Positions 28,164 to 47,300 of a stretch of 64,000 nucleotides of DNA are shown here, piece after piece (positions within the stretch are counted from its first letter, which is position 1; each line of letters starts with the position of its first letter). The translations under genes and the position numbers were made by a program. This DNA is from Ascidia mentula (Eukaryota > Chordata > Ascidiacea > Phlebobranchia > Ascidiidae), in the NCBI GenBank assembly GCA_947561715.1, contig OX387205.1, positions 7,755,001 through 7,819,000 of the forward strand, written 5' to 3'. The notes under the pieces are model-generated. The model was not told the origin of the DNA, did no database searches, and saw nothing but the letters and a program-made list of their open reading frames with translations.

Positions 28164-28757
28164 CTATTTCTTGTCAGAGTGTGGACTAATCAAATCTTCA
28201 CAAATTTTGGTCAGTTCCTTTGTTTCTTCACGCTTTTGCTCTAAATTAGATTCCAATGACCTTTTTTTCGTTTCTAGTACTTTAAGTTGGGTTTGTAAAT
28301 TATTCAGCAAACTCTTTGAATTGATGTCAACTTTATTGAGTTCTGTTTTGCTTTTTGATATTGCAGCTGTTACATCTCGAGATATACATTCAGTCTTTTG
28401 CTCAGTATCCCGTATTCTTGACTCCATTTCATCAATTGCCTTTAATGTCACAGTGCGATTAGTGTTCAATGTGTCAATGCTGGCCTTCAAACTTTTATTC
28501 ATCTCCAATTGTGATTTGATGGATGTATCAAGTGCACTCAAGTTCTCATTCAACTTGTTTGTCACTTCTTCCATTTGACCTTTCTGTTTCAGCAACATTT
28601 CACATTCACCATACACTAACTCTTTTTCCTGATTATGTAAAGTGTTATTGAACTGTTTTTGCAATGCTTCAATTCGTTTCCTTAACTTTTGGTTTTCTTG
28701 TTTTTTTTCTCTTCTTATTTTGGACTGCATTTGCTGAACTTCCTCCTCAGTGTACAT
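28164..28757 (-). CDS. Intronless coiled-coil protein with TACC-like C-terminus
   Basis: A single open frame of 197 aa, almost entirely heptad coiled coil (Lys/Glu/Gln/Leu-rich from about residue 10 to 190). The end, RSLESNLEQKREETKELTKI then CEDLI, closely parallels the extreme C-terminus of TACC proteins (human TACC1 LEQKNQEIEELTKICDELI). TACC proteins bind XMAP215/chTOG and act at centrosomes, spindles and microtubule plus ends. The rest shows no specific match, so this could be a short TACC, a retrocopy fragment or another coiled-coil protein sharing the tail. The ATG at 28757 is the first in frame; upstream exons cannot be excluded. No AATAAA was found downstream on this strand. Convergent with CDK5RAP2. 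Confidence 0.65.
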   Translation of the reverse strand: MYTEEEVQQMQSKIRREKKQENQKLRKRIEALQKQFNNTLHNQEKELVYGECEMLLKQKGQMEEVTNKLNENLSALDTSIKSQLEMNKSLKASIDTLNTNRTVTLKAIDEMESRIRDTEQKTECISRDVTAAISKSKTELNKVDINSKSLLNNLQTQLKVLETKKRSLESNLEQKREETKELTKICEDLISPHSDKK

Positions 28758-30800: not shown

Positions 30801-31009
30801 CTTTCCCCTATTGCATTATCCCATAATGTGACCCAAATGATTTAGCCACCGAATGTTCTCGAGTAAAGTTATTCATTTAATATCCTGTTTACCATATAAA
30901 ATATTCTCACAAGATACAAAATCTTGCATTAAACTAACCATTTCAATGCGTCCCAGATAATACGAGACACACGTGAATCACCTATACCCGGTTCACACAC
31001 ACACAACTT

Positions 31010-31300
31010 CGATGTGTGCTGGCTGACAATATCCTGTATTTTGTGTTCTTGCATTTTATTACTTCGACTGGCTCGTGGTATCACGTGACATTGTTGACCA
31101 ATCGGCTCTCAGTGTGGAGAGCTTTAAAAGGCCCAGTTTAGACCGGTAAGTTCAATCTATTTGATTCCATTCGATTCTACTTGTTCTATTGTATTACTGT
31201 TACACTGCTATTATTACTGAGACTCTACAAGCTATTCGCTGGCTTGGGATTTATTCCCACAGCCTGATAATAAACTGTTTAATCGGGGTGAGGTGAGGTC
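31010..31300 (+). promoter_or_regulatory. CCAAT/TATA block, solo-LTR-like or G9a promoter
   Basis: In order: CCAAT box ('gaccaatcgg', about 31099), TATA-like 'ctttaaaagg' (about 31122), a likely start region, a strong splice donor 'ccg|gtaagtt' (about 31146) and 'aataaa' near 31269. Such spacing fits a solo LTR fossil (promoter, R region, poly(A) signal within about 300 bp). It equally fits the host promoter and first noncoding exon of the G9a gene, whose coding exon starts right after an acceptor at 31980. No second LTR copy or coding part is visible here. Confidence 0.35.
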
Positions 31301-31330
31301 CAAACCTCACACAACCCACTGGTTGGGAAG

Positions 31331-31345
31331 CACTGCCCTACACGA
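31331..31345. mobile_element. hAT-like terminus (reverse of CAGTGCTTCCCAACC)
   Basis: Near 31321-31345 the sequence 'ggttgggaagcactg' is the reverse complement of CAGTGCTTCCCAACC, a typical hAT-superfamily end. Followed by 'ccctacac', which would be the target-site copy. No matching opposite end or second 'ccctacac' was found nearby, so this is at most a remnant. Confidence 0.35.
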
Positions 31346-31980
31346 AGATGTCTAGCTTTGTCAATTAAGTGATTTTTGCCAACATCCTACTTACTGAACA
31401 GTTTTATGCCTCATATAAACGTGTTCGGAAAATCTTCGATTCAACATTATGTGAAAATAAGATTTGTAACCGTACATGTTATAAGCAACCGAAACCAAGA
31501 AAACACAACCATATGGGGAGCTGTCATGCAACGGATTATGAGAAACGCAAACTGGACTCGAGCGCGGCAATGATTTTTTTGCATTGTTTTAATATTTTTG
31601 GTGGTGCACGTTGCAAATAATTGTCGCGCCTTGTCAAAGCCTTTTTCTGTGCTATGTTTTCAAAACACTGCTTTGTGTCGGAAATATTACAGTACAACTG
31701 AAAGTTAATGTTGCTTTGCAAAGGTTAAACGAATATAACTGTATGCAGATCCGTCTTAATGCTTTTTCGAGCGAAATGTAGGTGACAATAGATCTGCCAC
31801 ATGACAATATTTTGTGCCCTGAAACCTAAACCCCATTATTTTATCATTACCTTTTGAAATGGTTAGTGATGGTTATAATTTAACCAAGAACTACATCTTC
31901 AAGTTACTTGTCACACAGAAATGGTGATGAAACTGTTTGCATGTAAAACTCATATATTTCTTGCATGGTAAATGTTACAG

Positions 31981-32676
31981 ATGGCCTTTAGAACGAACAA
32001 AGTAGAATTTGCTGTAGCAGGAATACGTATTGGCACATTAAGAACCTACCCTGTTGTAGTAAAAGTAACTGAAGAGGAAGGCAAAGAAATTAAACAAACT
32101 GCACCCTTTGTTTTGACTGAAAAAGGAGTGAGATTTACAGTCTCCAGAAAAGGTATTTGTTAGTGTGTACTTGAATTATTTGTACAGTTTACCCCAAAGT
32201 GATAAATTTTGTTGCAATGCAAACTACTAATTGCTGCTTTTTCTGTATATTTAGATAACACCTCTGAAGGAGATTTCAATATCAAAATTTCAGCAAAGCA
32301 CATAAAGCTTGTTGAAGCACATTTAATGCGAGGATGTCCTGTAGTGTGGATTAAACCAGATGAAAATTGTGCTGAAAAAATTAGAAGTATATGCAACTTA
32401 ACTGACACAAACCAGGCGTATTTTGATCCAAGTTCCAAAGGTAAATTCCCGTTTCTCTATTAAACCAATAGGAATTTTTACAAAGCAATATTATACATTC
32501 TTGCAGCGTCTCCTGAGCAAATGATTGCTATCATAACCAAACTTGATCCCTTGCCACTGAGCACCAGTCAAGGCATTCAACAACTATTTGCCAAGATGGC
32601 CAGAAATCTCAAACGTGACCAAGATTCATTTTTTAAAATTATTTCTCAAAGTGAATGCAACAGCAGATTGGTGAAT
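31981..32676 (+). CDS. SENP6/7-like PH module encoded by first three exons
   Basis: Exons 31981-32152, 32255-32440 and 32507-32676. Matches to the module that precedes the protease domain of human SENP6: [12 protein letters not shown] against [32 protein letters not shown] against [31 protein letters not shown] against EEQYIILIFQNGLDP; and [16 protein letters not shown] against NFFAKIPFEEANGRLV. The order and spacing agree over about 180 residues. SENP6/7 cut SUMO chains, but no Ulp1/C48 catalytic domain follows here; acidic linker and G9a follow instead. The similarity is from memory and needs a profile search. Confidence 0.6.
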
Positions 32677-35600
32677 GTATGTGTATTTGGTTTTGTTCAG
32701 TGTTGTTGTTCTATTTATTGCTTTTGTCTGTAGACTATATCGTTTATGGAAGGGCGACCAACAGATTCTTCTTCAGCTACATCCAAAAAATCAGGCTCAA
32801 AGGTTTTAGTTATGGTTTGTATCCTTGTAGGAGTAGTTTTTCTGTGAGAAAGGAAGAAACAATATTATATGTAAAAATTCTTATATGGTGTAGTTGTTAG
32901 TTTGTTACAATGCAGAAACATAACTTTTGTAATTGTAATTGTAGATATGTATACGCCTTGGAAGTCCATGTACAGTGTTATGCAAATGTAGTATATGTAT
33001 TGTGCAGAAACGGATTGAATCAGATTCTGACTGGTCGAGTGTATCAAGTGATGTTGAGAAAGTTGTCAGCAAAAATAATATTATAGATGATGATGATGAT
33101 ATGATGGATGATTGTGATAGTGATCCTAGTTTCACGCCTTCCACAAAACCAAAAAGTATGTACACAACAAGTAAAATATAAGAAGTAGTTTTTGTTCAAT
33201 TGTGTCCATTCGAAGGTTCTTCATTAAGAACAGATCTGAGACACACTGGCAAGCAGCAACACCAAGCAGAAAAGTATTGCTGAAAATAAATGTTTAATTG
33301 TGATTATAAAAACAAAAATAAGACTAACTAATATATTACTGTTGCAGGGAAGTTACCAAAGTTCCGCAACATGTAAGTTATATGAAATCTGTGTTGTTAA
33401 TTTTGTGTATATAAAGTATATACATTGTTTTGTTACTTTACATGCAGGCAGATAATACGTCCACAATAACACCACCACGGATGTGAGTACTTTTTGTTTT
33501 AATTTGCTGTTAATTCTGTTAAACAAACATCTTCCTAATCTTTTTGTAAAGAAAACTAATAATTTTGAAGTTTGATGTGTTTTAGGGATGCAACAAAGAA
33601 GGTTCACAGAGCGAGAAAATCAATTCCAAACAGACATAGGACAGTGAGCATTGAAAGTCAGCTGCGTGCCCGAGTCGAAAATAAAACTCCGTCCACCCCC
33701 TTAAATGTTAGTTTTAACACAAAACAGTAATAAAGGATTTTGGGTAACTTTGCTATTTCTGTTTTTAGGATAAAGGTGTTAGTGGTTTATTGAATCCAAA
33801 TAAAAGAAAGCATAGTGAAGATAATGATTCAGACCAAAGGCTTACTCAAAATTTCAGTGATGTCTCTTCACGTCATTCAGGTCTGTAAAGCTATATTATG
33901 CATGTTATAGCAATAGCAACATTTATAATACTTGTCTACTCCCAAATATTTTTCTAAAGAAATTGAACCTGCAAAGAAGAAGCCAAATGATTTACTGACA
34001 TGGATAGGAAACAAAAAGAAGGTAAATAATTTACTGTTTTTTTTCCCCAAACCTCCAAGGCATATGTGCATATTTTTGTTGTTTTTGTGCAGAAGAAAAT
34101 TGATTCGCGTTCTAGTTCTTCGTCACCTGTTGATCAATTGCAACTTCCACATGAAACAAATCTAAATACTGTGTCTCAAAAATCTGAAGAATCAAACATG
34201 TCAAAACTAAAGGTTTGTTAAAACTTTACTTCAGCCTGTTGTCAACAAAACAGAAGTTTGTAAATAAACGAACATTTGTGATCAATGTTTTTTATGTAGG
34301 AAAGCAAGACTCAATTATTACAAAGGGATATGATGGTAGGTGATCATGTTTCTGCATTTTTGTTATCTTGTATTTAAACATCATAATTATATAGTCTCTA
34401 AAGCAAGGAGCTAAGAGTTTGCATTCTCTGGACCCACTGTGTACTTGTGTGGTTCCCAGTGTTCATCATGTCAATTTACAACGTGTAGAAGGAGTTAAAT
34501 GCATGGCAATCGACAATATCAGTGGAAGGGTAAATATAGTAATGATAAACACTGAAAAACAACTTTATTGACTGTTTATTAATGTTGTATGATTTCGCAA
34601 GTAAAGTTTGATGAATGTTCATTTTTTTTTATAAATTTGTTGTTATAACAAAATATGTTTTTAAAGTTTTACATGTGTTGGTAATTGTTTTGCAGTTATA
34701 CGGATGTCATTCACCTATAAAACATCCTGAAATGATGAGACCATCAAGCAAAATTCCTGTTCTGGGGTTATGTGATGAGCACCGGTAAGCCCAACACACT
34801 CTATGTATTAAACTGTCAAAGTTAATTGACTATGAGGAAATTACTTTCTGTAGTGAACGAATGGTCAGACATGAAAGCTGCCCTGGTTGTGGAACATTTT
34901 GCTGTGGCGGAATTTTCCTTGTCTGTTACAAAAACCATGAATGTCCTCACCGTTTTCATCGGTATTGTTTCCAGTTTTTAATATTACCTTTAGTTTGTGT
35001 AACTTAATAATCTATTCTTCTGGCATATATAAAAAAAACAGGAACATTATATTTAGTTTGTTTATTGATCTTAAGTTATAAATTATGATTCCAACTAGAA
35101 GTATGTACAACTATAGGTAAAGGTACTACTTCCATATTGGGGTAAAAACACATTTGGTATCGGTTTAACACAGGCATGGGCAAACGCTGGCCCATGGGCC
35201 AAATTTGTCCTGTTTGGCCATTCATTCTGGTCCACTTGGGGTTGGTATAAATTAGCGTGTTTTTAACAATCTGTTCACACTCCAGTTTAATTGTAAATTA
35301 AGTGCACGATTTTTTTGCTTTCTGTTGCAGCTTTTAAATGTTCAATTACATTACAAAATCACTCATATATGTGATTTTATGAACTATAATAGAAAGACTG
35401 TTTGTCCACTTCATACTAGCATGGATCATTGACCTGTCAAATTTTTGATAATTTCCGTCCTGTGAGCCGAAAAGTTTTGCTACTCTATTTCAACACGTTT
35501 AACAACGTTCAGTTTACCCTCGACCACACTCCGCCACTTTATCCGTATATACAGTATTTTTCATAACTATTTTAGTCACATGGACAGCTGCTTCCTGGGA

Positions 35601-38600
35601 GGGGTACTACTTAGATAATGAAATTAATTATATATACAATAAAGTGTCGCCCATACAACTTAACCTTAATATTATCACAATATTTTTATACGCTGAGGAG
35701 TTTGCTCCTTTGCAACGGAACAAGGAATTTATGTGTATTAACAAACCTGACCACGCTCCTGTCGGTTGAATTTTTTACAACAAAAAATGTATCATTTGGT
35801 GAATTTTAATCCTGACTTACCGATCGTTTTGTATGAAGTTAAAATCGACTCGAAGGATTCGTCAGTTTAAAAGTCGATTTGATTCCAATAATTCTTGTAA
35901 CCGCAAGCATCACTGACGTCATCACATTCCAGTGCTGCAAAGTTAAAACATTTTTCTTCTCGTAGGGATTGCATGATCTTCAGTGGTCGTTCGTCTGGAT
36001 GTCCGCACTGTGGAAGTGACGGTAGTCATGTCAAGGAGGTAACTCTGACTCCGTACAAGGATGAAAACCTGAAATGGATTCTGGCTGATCGAAATGCAGA
36101 CAAAATGGAAAGAAAAAAATATGCCGAAAATCGGTAATTTTTATCACATGCATGACTACTGAAGAAAATTCCAATTAAAGTCGAAGTTAGATGGTGTCCA
36201 AATGACAAAATAAACTGATGATAGCACAAACACCTTTTATGGAAAAACACCAATTTTTCTGATACATACGAAACGATTTGTTTTAGTTTAAAAAGAGTAA
36301 ATGAAACCACGAGTGTTTTTCTGATATTTCCATGATTATTTCAGAGGAAAAAGTGCTAGAATGGGGCATCCCGCAACTACTCCGTATGATCCTGTTCGAA
36401 TTCCGGGAGTAAAAATCGAACTAACAGGAATCAAAATCGACACGACTGGTCTGCACCCGGGAAAGCACCGAAGTGATTTGGAGAAAATTCTCGAATCTTT
36501 TCAATCCGATCCAACGTAAGACGCAGCGACGGTTAATTGAACAAAAAAATACGAAATCTGTCCTAATGTTGTTAATGGGCGTGTTACATAGAAGCATACT
36601 TGCCCTATAATATTGTTGTAATGCCGGAATTTTGTTTGCGTTAAAAGTTAACAATGTTCTGCAGTAATTTCTGTCACAATTTAGGGCTAAGAAAACAAAA
36701 TTCCAACCTCGTCAGCTGATGCACTTCGTAAAACAAGGAGAAGTAAGCAAGGTAAAGGTCCAAATTCTATTCCAAACCACAGTATGCTTTCAGTTTTCAT
36801 ATTTAAGGTTCTTCAAATGCTTGATGATATCGAGATTGCTTGCCATGTACCCGAACTGAACGAAGCTTTATTTGAAAGTGTTGATCAAGGCAACATTCCC
36901 ATAATGCACCTTCTCCTGCAATCCGGTGCCGAAGTAAACGCCAAGGACGAAACTGGGGATACACCGTTGGTATGTTACTTATTTTGGGTCGGTCTTTTAT
37001 TCAAGTCCATTGCTCATCCCTGTAGTAAGTTTTCTGTTGTGATTGAATAAAACCCGTTGTTGCTGAGTGGAAATTTTCATTTTGCTGAAACTTTTGTTTT
37101 CTAGTTTCACGCTTTGCGAAAACAGATGAAAGAAGTTATGTTTTATTTGCTCATTAACCAGGCTGATGTCACGCTCAAGGATGAGGAAGGTGAGTGATTT
37201 GATGACGCAAAATGGATGTAGTATAATTTGACCTTATTTCAATTGTGTGAAAAGGTCAACGTTTTGATAAATCCCTATGCGCAAAAACATGGAGCTTTGT
37301 ATTTTGAATAGGAAAGCCAAAGTTCAAACAGGGTTTAACTCCTGTATTTTGCGTTAATTTTATACTTTTTTGATAAAACGTGACAATTAATTTGTTTTCA
37401 AAATGAGTACACGAAAAATCCACCAAAACCAATAATGTTTCTTGAGGTTTAACATATATATGAATCAGGTATGACGTGTCTTCACCACGCCGCCAAGGAA
37501 GGGTTTATCGAGGGTTGCCACTTACTCATGACGTATGGCAAGGCTGAGATAAACTCACTAGATGACGGGGGATGGACTCCTATCGCTTGGGCCGCCGAAC
37601 ATAAACAAGCGAAGATGGCAAAATATCTCATGCAGTATGGCGCAGATTGCAATATTGTCGATGAAGTACGTGTTTGTTGCCATGCACAAATCTAACATTA
37701 ACACAATTACATATAATTGTTGATCAAAAGTTGCCTAACGTAATTAAGCATAAAAATATTTGCAAAAAGTTGCTTTTTGTACACATACATTTAAAAATTA
37801 TGTTATGATATTTGTGTATTTCATCGTAGGAAGGAAACATCTGTTTGCAATGGGCTGCTCTGTCAGGAAACATAGAAATCATGTTACTATGCATTCAATC
37901 TCACTGTCAAGTTAACCATGTAAGCAATGATTGTTGTTATTTTAATAATAAAATTGTTATTTTCCTTTTGTACAAGTCAAAAAGTTGTTTGTATGAGTGA
38001 CAAATTTGTGTTTTTGACGCTTACAGAGCAACTCCCACGGGGACACAGCACTTCATATTGCTGCTAGAGAAGATCACTATACCTGTGTGACGGCACTCTT
38101 GGCTGCTGGTGCAGATCCAACACTTGAAAACAACGATCATCATACTTCAGTCACGGTTAGTTGAAAAATCTATTAATACAGAGGCGTTTTCATAAAGCGT
38201 CAATCCCGAGTTTCTATATAAATATATTTCAATATTCGGCCGGACAAAGACACCGAAACTGAATACTGACAACGAATCCTACAAACGAAATGCTTGAAGC
38301 CGTGGTGCTTGGAATCGTGCTTTGTCATTAGGATTTATTTACGAAAATAGGATTGCACGAAACAAACACTTTAGCGCAAGAATAACCACACCAAAATAAA
38401 GTTATGTTTCTACAGCGAAAATACAGGCGGCTTTCTGTGTTTGCACACCCCCAGTGTATATGCACAGTTGCTCTACACTTATCTCTCTCCTTGTGAAAAG
38501 CGGTCGTACAACAACTTTTGTGTGATTCCAATGAAACATGCAGTGAACTTTCGTGTATATAATTTTATTCTTTCATAATTCTAAAACGCAGGTTGCTCCA

Positions 38601-40333
38601 GAAGACAGCATGTCGTGGATGTCGTTAAAAATCAATGCAGCCATTCGAAAAGCTTGTTTTATCAACGGCTCAATCGTTCCTTTCAACCGAGAACGAGTTC
38701 TGTCAAGAGACTTGTCACGTGGTTACGATAAGGTGACGTGTTACTCATGATCAGTTAAATGTTTGAGTGTTTTGTTTGTTTGATATTTGGTAAAACTTCA
38801 TAGATAATAAATAATGGTTGAATAAAGTCGGATGTTATAGGTACCCATCATGTGCGTGAATGCAGTTGATGACGCACCATGCCCCACAGACCCCCCTCTA
38901 GGCTTCCATTACGTCACAGATAATGTGCACACGTCACAAGAAACTCGAATCAACGCAGTGATATCTGGAATCCAGGTATAAACATCCTAAAGTTTTTTTC
39001 TTTTTTCACATTGCAGTGATATGTTCACAGTGCGATAGCATGAAACACACGAACATTTGTTTGATTTCTGATATTTCTGTTTCAGTCATGCGATTGTGGG
39101 GATAGTTGCGAATCTTCATCGTGTGTTTGTGGGCTGATCAGTGAGAGGTGCTGGTATTCCAAGCAAGGAACTCTTTTGCCACAATTTGATATGCGTGAGA
39201 CCCCACTGTTGTTCGAGTGCAACAAAATGTGCAAGTGTAGTAGAACGTGTACAAACAGGGTGGTGCAGAACGGTATAAGGTATTCATTCATTCTAAAATA
39301 AAATTGTTGAAAATAGAATCAATTTTAATTACTGCTGTTTTTTATTATGATCACTTGCAAAATTGAAAACGAAACGTTTGGTGATATTACTCATATTCAA
39401 CATTGCAATAACGTTATTTTTAATTTGTTCTAGGTACCGATTGCAAGTTTACCGGACTCATGGCATGGGTTGGGGTCTTAGAGCTCTCGAACCAATTCCA
39501 CGAGGTTCGTTTGTGTGCGATTATGTTGGGGAACTTATAACAGATGCTGAAGCAGATGTGAGGGAGGACGACTCATACTTGTTCGATCTCGAAAATAAAG
39601 TGAGTTGCAGACAAATTCGCATACTCGTGCTAAACTTCAGAAATCGTTTTTGATTGACTGCATATTGTAGGATGGAGAGATGTTCTGTATTGATGCGCGT
39701 TGCTATGGCAACGTGTCGCGGTTCATAAACCACCTGTGCGACCCGAATCTTATTCCGGTTCGCGTGTTTGTCGAACATCACGACATAAGATTTCCTCGTC
39801 TCGCCTTTTTTACCACTAGAGATATTCATGAAAATGAGGAACTGGGGTAAGTGGGTGTGGGACTGTTGGTATTGTTGACAATGTTTTCGTCCGGTTTCAT
39901 TATACAAATACTTTGTTATGAAAGGTTTGATTACGGGGATCGTTTTTGGGACGTGAAGTGTCGCCAGTTCACTTGCCACTGTGGATCTCCCAACTGTAAA
40001 TACTCAGAAGAAGCTTACAAGAAAAAAGCTGAACGTCCGAAGGAAGGTAAAAAATCATTTTACTTGATTCAATTTAGAAGCTTTACTTTGGGTTATTGTG
40101 AAACTAGATCGTTTTGCCTTTTTTCGTGAAAGTTAAACATATACTTTAACTGTGCGGTGGGGCGACCCTGTCTTGCCATGCGAATACATGGTAACACTTC
40201 TGCGTTGTCACACTTTGAATGAACTGAGTTCTTTCACTCTAAACAAAAATAAATATTTGTAGATGAGCAAGCCGTTGAATCGAGTGGCAACGAAGCGACA
40301 AACAAGTTGGATAATAATGAACATGAAGTGTAG
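31981..40333 (+). CDS. EHMT: G9a/GLP (EHMT) histone H3K9 methyltransferase with N-terminal SENP6/7-like module
   Basis: A 31-exon model, 3720 nt, about 1239 aa, with every intron phase agreeing. G9a/GLP write H3K9me1/2 in euchromatin and read the same mark with their ankyrin repeats. Order: PH-like module (exons 1-3), acidic and Ser-rich linker (4-13), Cys-rich region (14-17), ankyrin repeats (20-24), pre-SET, SET and post-SET (25-30). Linker exons: 32734-32802, 33008-33155, 33216-33273, 33348-33372, 33448-33482, 33586-33706, 33769-33880, 33960-34021, 34093-34212, 34300-34335; then 36345-36515 and 36685-36751 between Cys-rich and ankyrin parts. The ATG follows a 'gttacag' acceptor directly, fitting trans-splicing or an untranslated first exon. 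The last exon is 40263-40333; AATAAA at 40529. That the N-terminal part belongs to the same mRNA is inferred from continuous frame. Confidence 0.9.
33281..33290 (+). terminator. Possible alternative end: stop codon plus AATAAA
   Basis: If the donor at 33274 is not used, exon 6 continues KYC and stops at 33281-33283, overlapped closely by AATAAA at 33285-33290. That would give a short protein with only the PH-like module and acidic tail. It could mark a real alternative transcript or the boundary of two once-separate genes. Confidence 0.4.
34395..36133 (+). CDS. EHMT: G9a cysteine-rich region, exons 14-17
   Basis: Exons 34395-34529, 34696-34784, 34854-34961, 35966-36133. Cys pairs: [44 protein letters not shown]. 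Human G9a reads [20 protein letters not shown] and CPHCGEESSKAKEVTI in the same order, while [18 protein letters not shown] matches human LMRPSNKAPLLVLCEDHR. This zinc-binding region lies before the ankyrin repeats in all EHMTs. The intron between exons 16 and 17 carries a hAT-like insertion. Confidence 0.9.
35163..35504. mobile_element. hAT-like non-autonomous insertion with 8-bp target duplication
   Basis: Inside a G9a intron. The left end, CAGGCATGGGCAAACGCTGGCCCATGGGCC with palindromic GGCCC, resembles hAT-family ends ('caggggtgggcaaact...ggcccgcgggcc'). The right part 'gagccgaaaagttttgc' resembles the usual other end. Exact 8-bp copies of 'gtttaaca' flank it at 35163-35170 and 35497-35504; 8-bp duplications are the hAT hallmark. 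No transposase frame; internal sequence decayed. Confidence 0.6.
36808..38155 (+). CDS. EHMT: G9a ankyrin repeats, exons 20-24
   Basis: Exons 36808-36969, 37105-37189, 37469-37665, 37830-37919, 38027-38155. About six ankyrin repeats with motifs such as [43 protein letters not shown] and [17 protein letters not shown]. In mammalian G9a/GLP these repeats bind H3K9me1/2 through an aromatic cage; the two Trp plus Glu of WTPIAWAAE and the Trp of CLQWAA are at the cage positions, so methyl-lysine reading is probably kept. Confidence 0.9.
38592..40333 (+). CDS. EHMT: G9a pre-SET, SET and post-SET, exons 25-31
   Basis: Exons 38592-38732, 38841-38975, 39086-39279, 39434-39599, 39671-39846, 39925-40046, 40263-40333. 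Pre-SET Cys cluster: [88 protein letters not shown], catalytic [10 protein letters not shown] and [11 protein letters not shown]. Post-[13 protein letters not shown] (C-x-C-x4-C). All key residues of an active H3K9 methyltransferase are present. The final short exon is acidic and unconserved. Confidence 0.95.
40155..40215. repeat. Dispersed short repeat B, copy 2
   Basis: In the last G9a intron; shares 'gtggggcgaccctg', 'cttg(c/t)(c/t)atgc' and 'aacacttctgc' with 15848-15905. Confidence 0.5.
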
Positions 40334-41367: not shown

Positions 41368-44300
41368 ATGCCATCAGAGAATATAGATACGAATATGAAA
41401 CGGCGGCGAAGGGTAAATTGCAATATTGGGTGGTTGATAAATTTACTGGGCTTACATCATTGATACATGTTTGGTTCCAGGTTAAGAAAGGAGATGTACC
41501 TGCAAAGAAACCAATTCGCCTTGTATCGTCTCTTGGAGAAGGAAAACTAATGGATCGTTTTCAAGTACAGGAACATTCATTGATAAACAATTTGTAAATT
41601 ATAACCAATAAACTATAAAGTATTTACTAATATTAACAGAACACACTGAAAGAAAAAGAAAGCAAAAAGAAATTGCGAGATAAAAGCGAAAAGGAACGTA
41701 AAGATGCCAAGGAAAAGAGAGATCGAGAAATTGCTAAGTTTCAAGAAGAGGTTTGCTGCTGCCATAACCGATTGCTATCTTCGTATTGGTAAATCTCCTC
41801 ATTGCAAATGTTACTAGATTAACGCTTTGCTGGAAGACAATCCTGAACCGGTTAAACCAAAGAAAGATGCAAATAAAATATACGTGCCCAAGTTATCTGG
41901 AACTGTAAAAGTAAGTTGATTTTCTTTTCTTTTTTGTTACTAGGCTATATTTTTATTCGTCCCAAAATTCTCTTGGCGTAAACTCTCCATAGAGATTTAA
42001 ATGTTTCTACTTTTTTTTCCAGCGTAAAATTAGAATAGACCAGAGCGTACAGCTAGTTGCAACTTGAAGTAAATTTCGGTCAAAGGTCTAATTATCAATA
42101 GAAAAACATTTTGTAGATTATATGAAAAAAAAGTATCTGTCATTTTAACTTTTACTCTTAGTAGGAAAACCGTATTTCGCAATTTGTAAACCAATTCTAC
42201 CTGGAGTCCGTTGGCTTTCCTAAGTTCTTCATCGAACAAATTTATGTTTTAACCACGTCCCAATTTACTCATAAGACTTGTATTACCCCAGGGAAAATTT
42301 GAAGCACTTGAGCAGAAGAAACAAGAAGAAGAAAAGTCGAAGATGAACCAAGAACGAAAAAAACGACTGGACCGAGATTTGAGAGAAAAGAAACGCATTC
42401 AGTTGGAAATTGCCAAGAAGAAACAACAGGTAGCTTGTAATTTTTTTAAGCCTGTAATTCGTCGATGTTGCACCTGTCAAATTTTATTGCAAAAATGTTA
42501 GCTTAAGGAGGCGGGAGAAAACGAGGATGAACTTCCTGATGATCAAATTTTAACGAGCGGGAGAATACCAGGGAAAATCCAGACCAACTTTGAAAAAATA
42601 AATGAACAAAGACTCGAAAAGGAAAGAAAAAAACTGGAACTGGAGAAGAAACTAAAGATTTCATCAGAAATAAAAGCTGTAAAAGAATATTACTCCAACT
42701 CCCAAAATCAGGTAAACATTTTTTAAATATTAACAATGGAGTGAGTAAAACCTTTATCTTTACTCGAAGGAAAGCGATAATAACGAAGACACACCAGTTT
42801 CTCCAAAAACTGCACCCGGTAAATTAAAAAAAAATTTTGATGAAATTCTGCGCTCACGTGAAGAAGAGAAATGTCGCCGCTTGAAGGAAGAAATGAAAAG
42901 TAAATTCGAGGAAGAAAAACAACAAATGCGCGTCGCTAAATTGGTTTGTGCTGTGCAAATTGTTTTGTAACTGATTAAATTCGTATCTTTAATTTTGAAT
43001 CCAAATTTGTCTGCGGCGCAATTACTGTGGGCTCACTTTATTTTTAGGCATCTGGTGAAGGTGATTCAGAAGAAGATTTAACTTCCGCCTCCCAGTCAAG
43101 CAGTTGCGAAAAAATTCGAACGAAGCCAAACCGTCTTTCATCGTCTTTTACTAACTTCGACTTGCTGGAAAAGAAACGATTGGAAGATGAGAGAAAGAGA
43201 ATTCACGAGGAAAGGAAAGCATTGCTGGACGAAGAAAGAAAACTCTTCGAACAAACAAAAAAATCCCTCGAAAGAGATTCTTCTGACGACGAAATATCAA
43301 AAACAAAATTTCACGAAGAGGTGCAGATAAATTGTATTCAAACGAATTTGGACTGGAAGGCCTTCCACCACAAGTTGTTTGCTAAACTTTTTTAGCCTAG
43401 CCTTTTCAACAAATGGCAAAAAAGAAAAATATTTATTGCTTATATGCTACGATGTATTCGTATGGCTTCCAAGTATTTTGTCTCTATGTTAAGTTTGATA
43501 TTTTTGTAGGCCGCTTCCCCCGGTCGTTTAGATTCGTCTTTAACAAAATTTGACATATTGACGCAACAAAAATTTGAGGAAGAGAGGGAAAGGATTTTAA
43601 GGGAAAAACAAAGATTACTCGAAGAGGAAACTCAAAACTTTAAAAAAGAACAAGTAAATAAATTTTCTACTTGTGCTCACGTTTTGTTGTTTATAATATA
43701 TATGAGACAAACACATGTATTTTGCCCAAGATGCGTTTGGCGTCACAGCAAACTGATGATTCAGATAACATCACCAATTCATCCCACTATTCGTCGAGCG
43801 AGAATGGAAATTCGGATGAAAAGAAACTAAATCATGAACCAAAATGTAAGAAATTAACAAAACGCAGAAAAAAAGCTAAACATTTGCCAAACAAACTGGA
43901 GTACAGCAAACTCAAATTCGATGTGCTGGAAAGAAAAAGAATTGAAAACGAAAGTATGCGAATGCAGGTTGGTATTTGTTTGTTAAGCAGGTTGACATTC
44001 ATTTATAAAGAGCAATTTTCCATATGATACCAGCAACAAAGGCAACAACTTCTCGAAGATGAAAAACGACTTTTTGAGGAAGCAAGACGTCGACAACAAT
44101 TGGAAAACGAAGAAGATAATCTCGAAAATCATCAGGTCCCTTTAATTTTCTTGACTAAACAGCTTTTTGTTAAATTACAAACAAATATTAGGTTTCTGAT
44201 TTTTCCTTTACTTGACATTTACCCATTCTTGTATTTAAAGTAATTTACAACTTAGCTCGTCACAAGAACTAGGTAAATTTTTAGTAGGTGTCCGCAGATT

Positions 44301-47300
44301 TTGATGATTTTATAAAAAAGGCCCGTGACCACAAAAAGATTCGAAACCACTGACTTAAAATGATAAAATTGATTTTCTGAAACGATCTCCAACAGCATAC
44401 ACCTTCAATCACAATATTTTGATTTTGAAATATCAGGAAAAAACACGTTCCACTTCCCCTGGCCGTCTGGAGTCTACGCTTACAAATTTTGACGTCTTGA
44501 CCAAACAAAAACTGGAGGAGGAGAGAGAAAGAATCCGAAACGAGAGAATAAAACTCATGGAGGAAGAAAAGCGGTTGATGGAAGAAGAGCGAAACAAGCT
44601 CAAGGTAAAATATGTTGTGAAATTTTGCAGAGCATAAAACATGGATCCCTGGTGAGTTTTTTGGATGTCTTTTGAAACTCGTTCGTTTATCAGATGCAAG
44701 AAAGTGAACAATGCCAAGAAGATAACACTGGTTCTATTGACACAAAATGTTTTCCGAAACCACAAAAACTTAACAAGTCGTTTACTCAATTTGACATGAT
44801 GGAAAAACGTCGAAAACAACAAGAAAGAGAAGAACTTTACCGAGAGAAAGCAAAAAAACTGGAAGAAGAAAGAATTGCATTCAAGAAAGAAAAGGAAAAT
44901 ATGGTATAAGAGTGTTTTGTACGATCGTTATTTTGCTGCTTGACATTGTCCACCCATGTGCTTTAATGCTGTTTAATAAACATTCCCCTACTTCTTGCGA
45001 CAAGCACACTTTCTCAATATAATTCCATACTTCATTAAAATTGTTAAAAACTACATGCCAATACTTTTACAGGATCTGCATAGTGACCTGGAAGAAAACG
45101 AAGATAAAGCAAATAATTATCTTTATCGAAAACCGAGCAAATTGTCAAAGAAGTTTACTGAATTTGACCAAGCTGAGCAACAGCGAATAGAAAAAGAACG
45201 ACTTACTGCACATGAGCAAAGAATAAAAAAACTCCAAAGTGAAGTTAGGGCATTTGAACAGGAACGAAAACAATATCATGTAATTATTTTACGATTTATT
45301 AGTTACTCCACAGTATTAAACAGTTTTGTTTACTTCTTTTGCATCCCTTGGTTTGAGTGCCAACATAAATCAAACAATGCATTGTACGTTGTGCAGGATA
45401 GCGATGACGACATAACAAGTGGTACCAAAGCTTTACTCGAGTCAAGTCGTGACAGTCCACGTCCCAAGAAGCTCTCACAATCTCTCACAATGTTTGATGT
45501 CATGGAACGAAAGCGTCGAGAGGAGGAGCGTGAAAAACTACAGAGAGAAAAAGCCAAACAGCTGGAGGAAGAAAGAAAACTGTTTGAACAATCGCGGCTT
45601 CAAACCGTAAATAAATTAACCATTATTAATATTATGAGCAGAGCTGGGTGCGTAACAAAGTTAAAATAATCAATATTGATGTTTTTTAAGGAGGAAAATG
45701 GGTCGGATGAGCAGGGGGATAATATCAGGCAAACGTCCGAGGAAACTCGAAACGTGAAACGAATGAATGTAAAAAGCAAGATAGAAGCGGTGATGAGGGC
45801 GCAAGAGGAAACTGAACGAAAAAGGATTGAAGAAACCAAGTTTTGTCGTATGACTGTTGAACAGCAGGAAATGTTTTTGGCCAGAGAACGCCAGGTTGGT
45901 ACAGTCACATTATGTACGGTGTATAAGCTCCAAATGTTAGTTTAAAAGCAGTTGTGCTACACGTTGTATAAGTTGAAGGTAAGATGCGTCTAGCAACTGG
46001 GGAAACTTTTTCAGATCCGTTTTCTGAAAGAACAGTTGGCCCAAGCTCAAGCTGAAGAATATTCAGATGATTATTCGGATTCGGATGAAAGTGGAGAAGA
46101 TGGCGAGTATTATTATTATTACAGTGATGATGAAGGTGAGGAAGAAGATGACGATGATGATGATTGCGACGAGGTGGGTGTTTAGGCAAGCATATAGGCT
46201 GTCATTATTAATACGACATGAAAAACGAACAAACAGTAGTTAGTTTTTTGTTTTAACATAAGTTATTTTATTAAAAGTTGGAAATGAATAGCGGATTAAC
46301 ACAATTTAATTTTTGTTATATAGTCGGAGGAAGGCAATGTTGAAGAAGAAGAAGCTGATAAACAAAGCAACGAAGGTACCACATTTCTCCTGACTTTACA
46401 ATTTCCAAGCAAAACATTGTCTAACTCTATCATATTCCGCATGTTAAAGGTTCGGAAACGAAGTCAACGATAAGTGACGGCAGCAGTGGGTCAGGAGCTT
46501 ACAGCGGTGCTCCATACTTTGTTCAAACTTTGAACAACATTTGCGTGAAAGAAAGTGAACCAGTTCGCTTTGATGCAAACATAAACGCAAACCCTCATCC
46601 AAAGGTAGGTTTCAAACATATTTATTACTTTGTATGCGAAAATGGAGGATACCACTTTGAATATAACAACCATCACTCCAATGTGAGGGAATAGATTGTA
46701 AAAGTACAGTATCTCAGAGAGTTACATTTAATCAAATATGTAGTTCTTTTGTTAAAATGACCAAGAATTTCTCTCATAGTAGGCTGATCTAACATACTGA
46801 CGTGTCCTCAAAAACATTTTACAAAAATCATCGAATCGAATTTAAAAATTGCATTTCAGGTCACGTGGTATTTCAAAAACCGTGTAATTCGAAACAGTGC
46901 TGATTACCAGTACATCAACAAAGGAACGCAATATTCGCTATACATGAATGAAAGCTTCGTGGACGACTGTGGCGAATATATGTGCAAAGCTGTCAACGAT
47001 AAGGGGACTGCTACCAGCAAAGCGATGCTGAACGTCCTCGGTATGTCTTTGTTCACGACGCCTTCAATTTTCATACTGAATGTATCAAAGCTTATTATAG
47101 CGGGCAGAAATCACTTGAGGAAAAAAGGCCCTTTTACCTTTACCAGTATAAGCGTTTATTATGTTTTTTGGTGTTGATATCTCATAGTAATTGTACTGAT
47201 GGTTCAAATATCCAAAGCTTTATTGGACTATGTGTCCATTTTTTTTATTTGGCGCATGATTAGCTACAGAATATGCCACCGCAGCGAAAATACAAACCGT

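Follow-up and report, generated by a model that had tools for sequence, protein, structure and literature searches.

The window, here the whole 64,000-nucleotide stretch of Ascidia mentula DNA that was analysed, corresponds to C73:7755001-7819000 in a 195.8-Mb genome and contains 0 N bases. The final gene model within it occupies 31981-40333 on the + strand, comprises 31 exons, predicts a protein of 1243 amino acids and has its sole stop at the end (40331-40333). Its features are as follows, in window coordinates.

31981..32152, + strand: exon 1, which carries the ATG and the opening portion of the SENP6/7-like module (IRIGTL)
32255..32440, + strand: exon 2, module part CPVVW ... YFDPSSK; the intron after it is in phase 1 and has its exact counterpart in the genome's own SENP6/7 gene
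32507..32676, + strand: exon 3, last module exon, with GT-AG boundaries
32734..32814, + strand: linker exon 4, Ser-rich, with a weak donor; the alternative donor 32802 is also in frame; coding score 0.7 bits
33008..33155, + strand: linker exon 5, acidic, open in the used phase only; donor 33155 is of median strength
33216..33273, + strand: linker exon 6, small, keeps the frame from exon 5 into exons 7-9
33348..33372, + strand: linker exon 7, 25 nt, coding score 0.9 bits, with the top-scoring + strand acceptor of the window
33448..33482, + strand: linker exon 8, 35 nt, open in the used phase only, coding score -2.2 bits
33586..33706, + strand: linker exon 9, encodes KVHRARKS
33769-33880, 33960-34021, 34093-34212 and 34300-34335, + strand: linker exons 10-13, a phase-matched chain
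34395..40333, + strand: exons 14-31 of EHMT (G9a/GLP), with the Cys-rich region, ankyrin repeats, Pre-SET and SET

Exons were joined by hand from GT-AG boundaries, and the linker was revised after splice-site scoring with matrices trained on 26 donors and 27 acceptors, of which the EHMT exons 34395 onward supplied 17 donors and 18 acceptors and the genome's own SENP6/7 gene the remainder. The reading frame stays open, with matching phases, from the module through ten linker exons into the Cys-rich exon at 34395. A preliminary description of the locus had claimed such an in-frame run into G9a/GLP, free of stops and with the same number of linker exons, and the 31-exon chain retains both. An initial 30-exon model, which used donor 33159 and lacked exon 33216-33273, was dropped, as all 26 training donors score higher than 33159. 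A possible alternative is the path 33155-33348-33586, which skips exons 6 and 8 (33216-33273 and 33448-33482); it scores lower than the full chain at penalties of 6, 8 and 10 and nearly equal to it at 12. The best path of a crude gene finder disagrees with the 31-exon model over exons 3-4; with a penalty of 12 the disagreement includes exon 5. The step of the model that is in doubt is the one from exon 5 to exon 9.

At the 5' end an AG acceptor lies immediately upstream of the ATG of exon 1 and an in-frame TAA lies at 31969-31971, so the acceptor is possibly one for a spliced leader, whose addition at 31981 may form the start of the mRNA. If there is no splicing before exon 1, translation from an ATG at 31972 would make the protein three residues longer. 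The two introns within the module, 32153-32254 (102 nt) and 32441-32506 (66 nt), are both multiples of three in length, and exons 1-3 lie in one frame.

The EHMT part was compared with Pfam using a 1212-amino-acid splice variant that omits exons 33216-33273 and 33448-33482. This query matches EHMT1-2_CRR (PF21533) with an E-value of 4.2e-31 and 107.6 bits against a cut-off of 27.5, followed in order by PF12796 (ankyrins), PF05033 (Pre-SET) and PF00856 (SET), all above their cut-offs. The EHMT domains are complete, as in EHMT1/EHMT2 (GLP/G9a), and the predicted identity of the gene is an H3K9 methyltransferase. Across the genome the Cys-rich family is found above cut-off at one locus only, that of the window, with a further match on C2 below cut-off.

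Exon 9 adds a feature that the preliminary description does not mention, the H3K9-like automethylation-type motif KVHRARKS. It resembles the automethylation site of human G9a, which we take to be KVHRARKTM, so an ARKS/T motif of this type in the N-terminal linker is a further likeness to EHMT1/EHMT2. In human G9a a Glu-rich region follows the automethylation motif, whereas the acidic stretch of the window protein precedes it. With KVHRARKS in exon 9, the G9a gene therefore extends at least to 33586. Automethylation of G9a at K185, phosphorylation at T186 and HP1 binding are described in PMC8541646.

A Pfam search of the 1212-amino-acid protein finds no Peptidase_C48 domain at E<=1, in agreement with the earlier statement that no SUMO-protease domain follows the module, and none of the 87 genome Peptidase_C48 matches listed is on contig C73. 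Many long single-frame C48 reading frames elsewhere among these 87 listed matches look transposon-borne. A protease exon cluster at C1:26842845-27066601 and C1:23075385-23088748 consists of repeated copies, some with in-frame stops, and looks SENP1/2-like, judging by motif.

The preliminary description also proposed a search for a separate SENP6/7 gene, and one is present on C52. A human SENP6 protease stretch finds two strong exons there at C52:4856549-4857603, with 77% and 60% identity. The gene reads continuously, including QDNYSDCGVFLLEYVE, and has the His, Asp and Cys motifs intact. Its own copy of the module is encoded upstream on the same strand, as SVRIGQF ... YFDPEGSDDQVFIVFYF ... SFFIEISVTEANNR, and provides a comparison from the same genome for the exons at 31981-32676, which encode a module of about 180 residues with the landmarks that had suggested a SENP6/7 relationship.

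Under four alignment settings the window module matches the genome's own SENP6/7 module with z-scores of 5.99, 5.32, 4.95 and 4.08; 1, 0, 0 and 3 of 2000 shuffles, respectively, are as good, and so are 0/3336 translated stretches used as decoys. Five loci, L009, L010, L011, L013 and L016, were left out of the decoys, and window 31001-32800 and the module exons of L019 were masked. The exons of the own SENP6/7 module were picked by eye with the landmarks known, which favours the match somewhat. A profile built from the own SENP6/7 module and human SENP6 matches the window module with a probability of 83 and an E-value of 9e-6 over 100 columns; the match spans residues 69-173, that is exons 2-3, and 0/200 shuffles are as good. 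For exon 1 the kinship to SENP6/7 consists of the short IRIGTL motif only, which stands in the right order.

The gene structures agree at one point as well. A phase-1 intron falls at the same residue in both genes, after YFDP and three further residues, splitting a codon as G|CG after YFDPSSK in the window gene and as G|AT after YFDPEGS in the own SENP6/7 gene. This common position and phase is an independent mark of the kinship of the modules. The other module intron of the window gene has a phase unlike that of its neighbour in SENP6/7, and the own SENP6/7 gene has one extra module intron that the window gene lacks. By these comparisons the window module is homologous to the non-catalytic module of SENP6/7 over residues 69-173, and the relationship that had been claimed for exons 1-3, and for which a profile comparison had been proposed, is borne out by the own-gene match, the common intron and the profile E-value over exons 2-3.

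The contrary explanation, that exons 1-3 are unrelated to SENP6/7 and that their landmarks are due to chance, draws on the scores obtained with human SENP6 alone. Against it the window module reaches z-scores of 1.3-2.3, with 67-228/2000 shuffles and 61/3336 decoys as good. Human SENP6 performs no better against the own SENP6/7 module (z 0.6-1.6; 144-497/2000 shuffles and 264/3336 decoys as good), and since the human sequence scores weakly against both, the module seems to evolve fast, so that single sequence pairs would test weakly. The module also lacks a Pfam model and a structure: Pfam and PDB sequence searches with it give no match beyond a sub-cut-off Pfam E-value of 0.15, Pfam has no match for the human SENP6 module either, and a PDB sequence search with human SENP6 gives matches only from query residue 198 on, on the protease side. 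The PH-like fold that the preliminary description gives to the human SENP6 module is a candidate fold for the window module; an AlphaFold model of the latter has a pLDDT of 34.6 and derives from a single-sequence read-through that included intron residues, and it was not used. With the window module as query, a genome-wide search at E<=1 returns the window alone, but the same search also missed the own SENP6/7 module, and other diverged copies are therefore possible; with the human SENP6 module, a genome search at E<=10 gives one chance-level match (E 4.33). Set against the match to, and the intron in common with, the genome's own SENP6/7 gene, a chance origin of the landmarks is highly improbable.

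Whether the module and EHMT belong to one gene turns on the DNA between exons 5 and 9. We consider it probable that the fusion is genuine, with one mRNA and one protein containing both the module and EHMT: a single gene at 31981-40333 would encode an EHMT that has gained an N-terminal module of about 180 residues. The module would either descend from the non-catalytic one located ahead of the protease in SENP6/7 or have a common ancestor with it. We infer that one mRNA would carry all the exons. Donor 33155, with a score of 7.0, fits the phase of the next exons; donors of this strength occur 1.8 times per kb. Over its 18 codons, exon 33216-33273 scores 7.0 bits as coding sequence when read in the phase that the chain requires; its other open phase scores 2.4. 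Among 1000 dinucleotide shuffles of 33182-33330, any fitting exon appears in 145 and one as good as 33216-33273 in 3, a test that was made after the stretch was noticed and that counts a single outgoing phase only; it is supportive of fusion, not decisive. Exons 33348-33372 and 33448-33482, with coding scores near or below zero, lend no support of their own. A cruder path test over 32683-33570, run at two penalties, gives 0/200 shuffles as good at either of them, a result that cannot separate fusion from an operon, since both include exons 4-5 as coding sequence. The RNA fold of 33156-33347 is unremarkable (z -0.91).

The alternative is an operon, in which an upstream gene made up of the module and its acidic tail is co-transcribed with EHMT and split from it by spliced-leader trans-splicing at 33348, exon 5 reading on to a TAA at 33179-33181 that ends the upstream gene. 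A query consisting of the 16-base Ciona leader plus GTA, with at most one mismatch, gives 957+1173 (2130) matches in the genome, many of those listed lying in tandem arrays, and 0 with the reversed control; with matches this abundant an operon is possible. Among the matches listed, tandem arrays lie at C1:15239663-15293557, mostly with a spacing of about 720 bases, and from C71:13038730 onward, mostly with a spacing of 281/430 bases. Operon genes in Ciona are described as abutting without intergenic DNA and as often mispredicted as fused (PMC2760879), and upstream operon genes there as ending with the AG that serves as acceptor (PMC6836712). The two parts at this locus likewise lie close together on the same strand. 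The proposed trans-splice acceptor is the one with the highest + strand score in the window, and an AATAAA lies at 33285. Joining 33372 to 33586 creates AACATGG, whose ATG is in frame with EHMT and has an A at -3 and a G at +4. This ATG lies immediately ahead of the ARKS motif, a natural place for a separate EHMT to begin. Unlike in Ciona-type operons, however, the two parts can be connected through a donor in the right phase and an exon that bridges them: 33155 and also 33170 are usable donors just 5' of the putative stop, in phase to continue into EHMT, and the small in-frame exon 33216-33273 sits where the 3' UTR of the upstream gene would be. The AATAAA is 57 nt ahead of the acceptor, whereas upstream mRNAs in Ciona are described as ending at the acceptor itself (PMC6836712); neither a second AATAAA nor an ATTAAA occurs within 33182-33347, which leaves the region close before the acceptor free of both. 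The bridging exon and the in-phase donor favour fusion as the predicted arrangement without proving it, and we regard the operon as rather unlikely. Less likely still is that both modes operate, a fused protein being made along with a module-only protein and a short EHMT through alternative poly(A) use or leader addition. Signals for either mode are present, and the insect Su(var)3-9/eIF2gamma locus provides a precedent for a shared H3K9 methyltransferase locus (PMC1435931).

The fused gene that we consider probable differs from EHMT1/EHMT2 in its extra N-terminal module of SENP6/7 type, and we know of no vertebrate EHMT with such a module. It has the non-catalytic module in common with SENP6/SENP7, and one module intron agrees in residue and phase with that of the genome's own gene; it is unlike them in that no C48 protease follows; a methyltransferase stands in its place. 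Insect Su(var)3-9/eIF2gamma resembles it as an H3K9 methyltransferase gene joined to another gene. In that case the products are reported to have only their first 80 residues in common, by alternative splicing, and the join is interpreted as neutral (PMC1435931), whereas the window gene would keep the whole module in the enzyme.

For the fused protein a function as a docking domain can be proposed, in which the module may bring the H3K9 methyltransferase to partners or chromatin common to SENP6/7. Docking would place it beside the retained ARKS-type automethylation site, whose counterpart in human G9a is HP1-binding. Human SENP7 is reported to keep HP1 at pericentric heterochromatin without protease activity, and catalytically dead SENP7 to rescue HP1 localisation (PMC6726658); the SENP6/7 family can therefore act at H3K9me chromatin without the protease. 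G9a itself is reported to be SUMOylated (PMC8541646). The SUMO-interaction-motif pattern has four matches in the first 470 residues, all within the module; a stretch of exon 1 resembles such a motif, a pattern that is common by chance and possibly a buried strand here. We infer that a docking role or a SUMO-pathway role of the module may apply. It is a tentative suggestion that an ascidian lineage grafted a docking module of a poly-SUMO protease onto G9a/GLP, giving a methyltransferase directed straight at SENP6/7 partners or at SUMO-rich chromatin. If so, the locus would be a natural gain-of-module experiment that could reveal what the unexplained SENP6/7 module binds, and a module carried without its protease would let a binding partner be found apart from SUMO cleavage.

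Among the titles listed in searches of one literature library, none dealt with ascidian EHMT or with an EHMT that has a SENP6/7 module. If fused, the gene would represent a new domain architecture for a central chromatin enzyme, brought about by a module for which there is no matching Pfam model and no structure found by PDB sequence search. If the locus is instead an operon, G9a would share its transcription with a protease-free gene of SENP6/7 type, and the case would illustrate how genomes with spliced leaders can imitate gene fusions.

Other observations concern the remainder of the window and genome. A genome search for Cellulose_synt gives one match above cut-off (27.1 bits vs 24.7), and the same search is positive in 3/14 control genomes, which are bacteria, so that the match says little by itself; taken with the spliced-leader matches it is consistent with an ascidian tunicate. 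At 28164-28757 on the - strand of the window an exon codes for a TACC C-terminal coiled coil (E 1.3e-14), and one at 46788-47174 on the + strand codes for an immunoglobulin I-set domain (E 3.6e-11). Between them, adjoining reading frames at 43048-45669 (+ strand) contain similar repeats of a Ser-rich ... FD ... ERKR ... EEER type, which are perhaps a repeated module of one gene.
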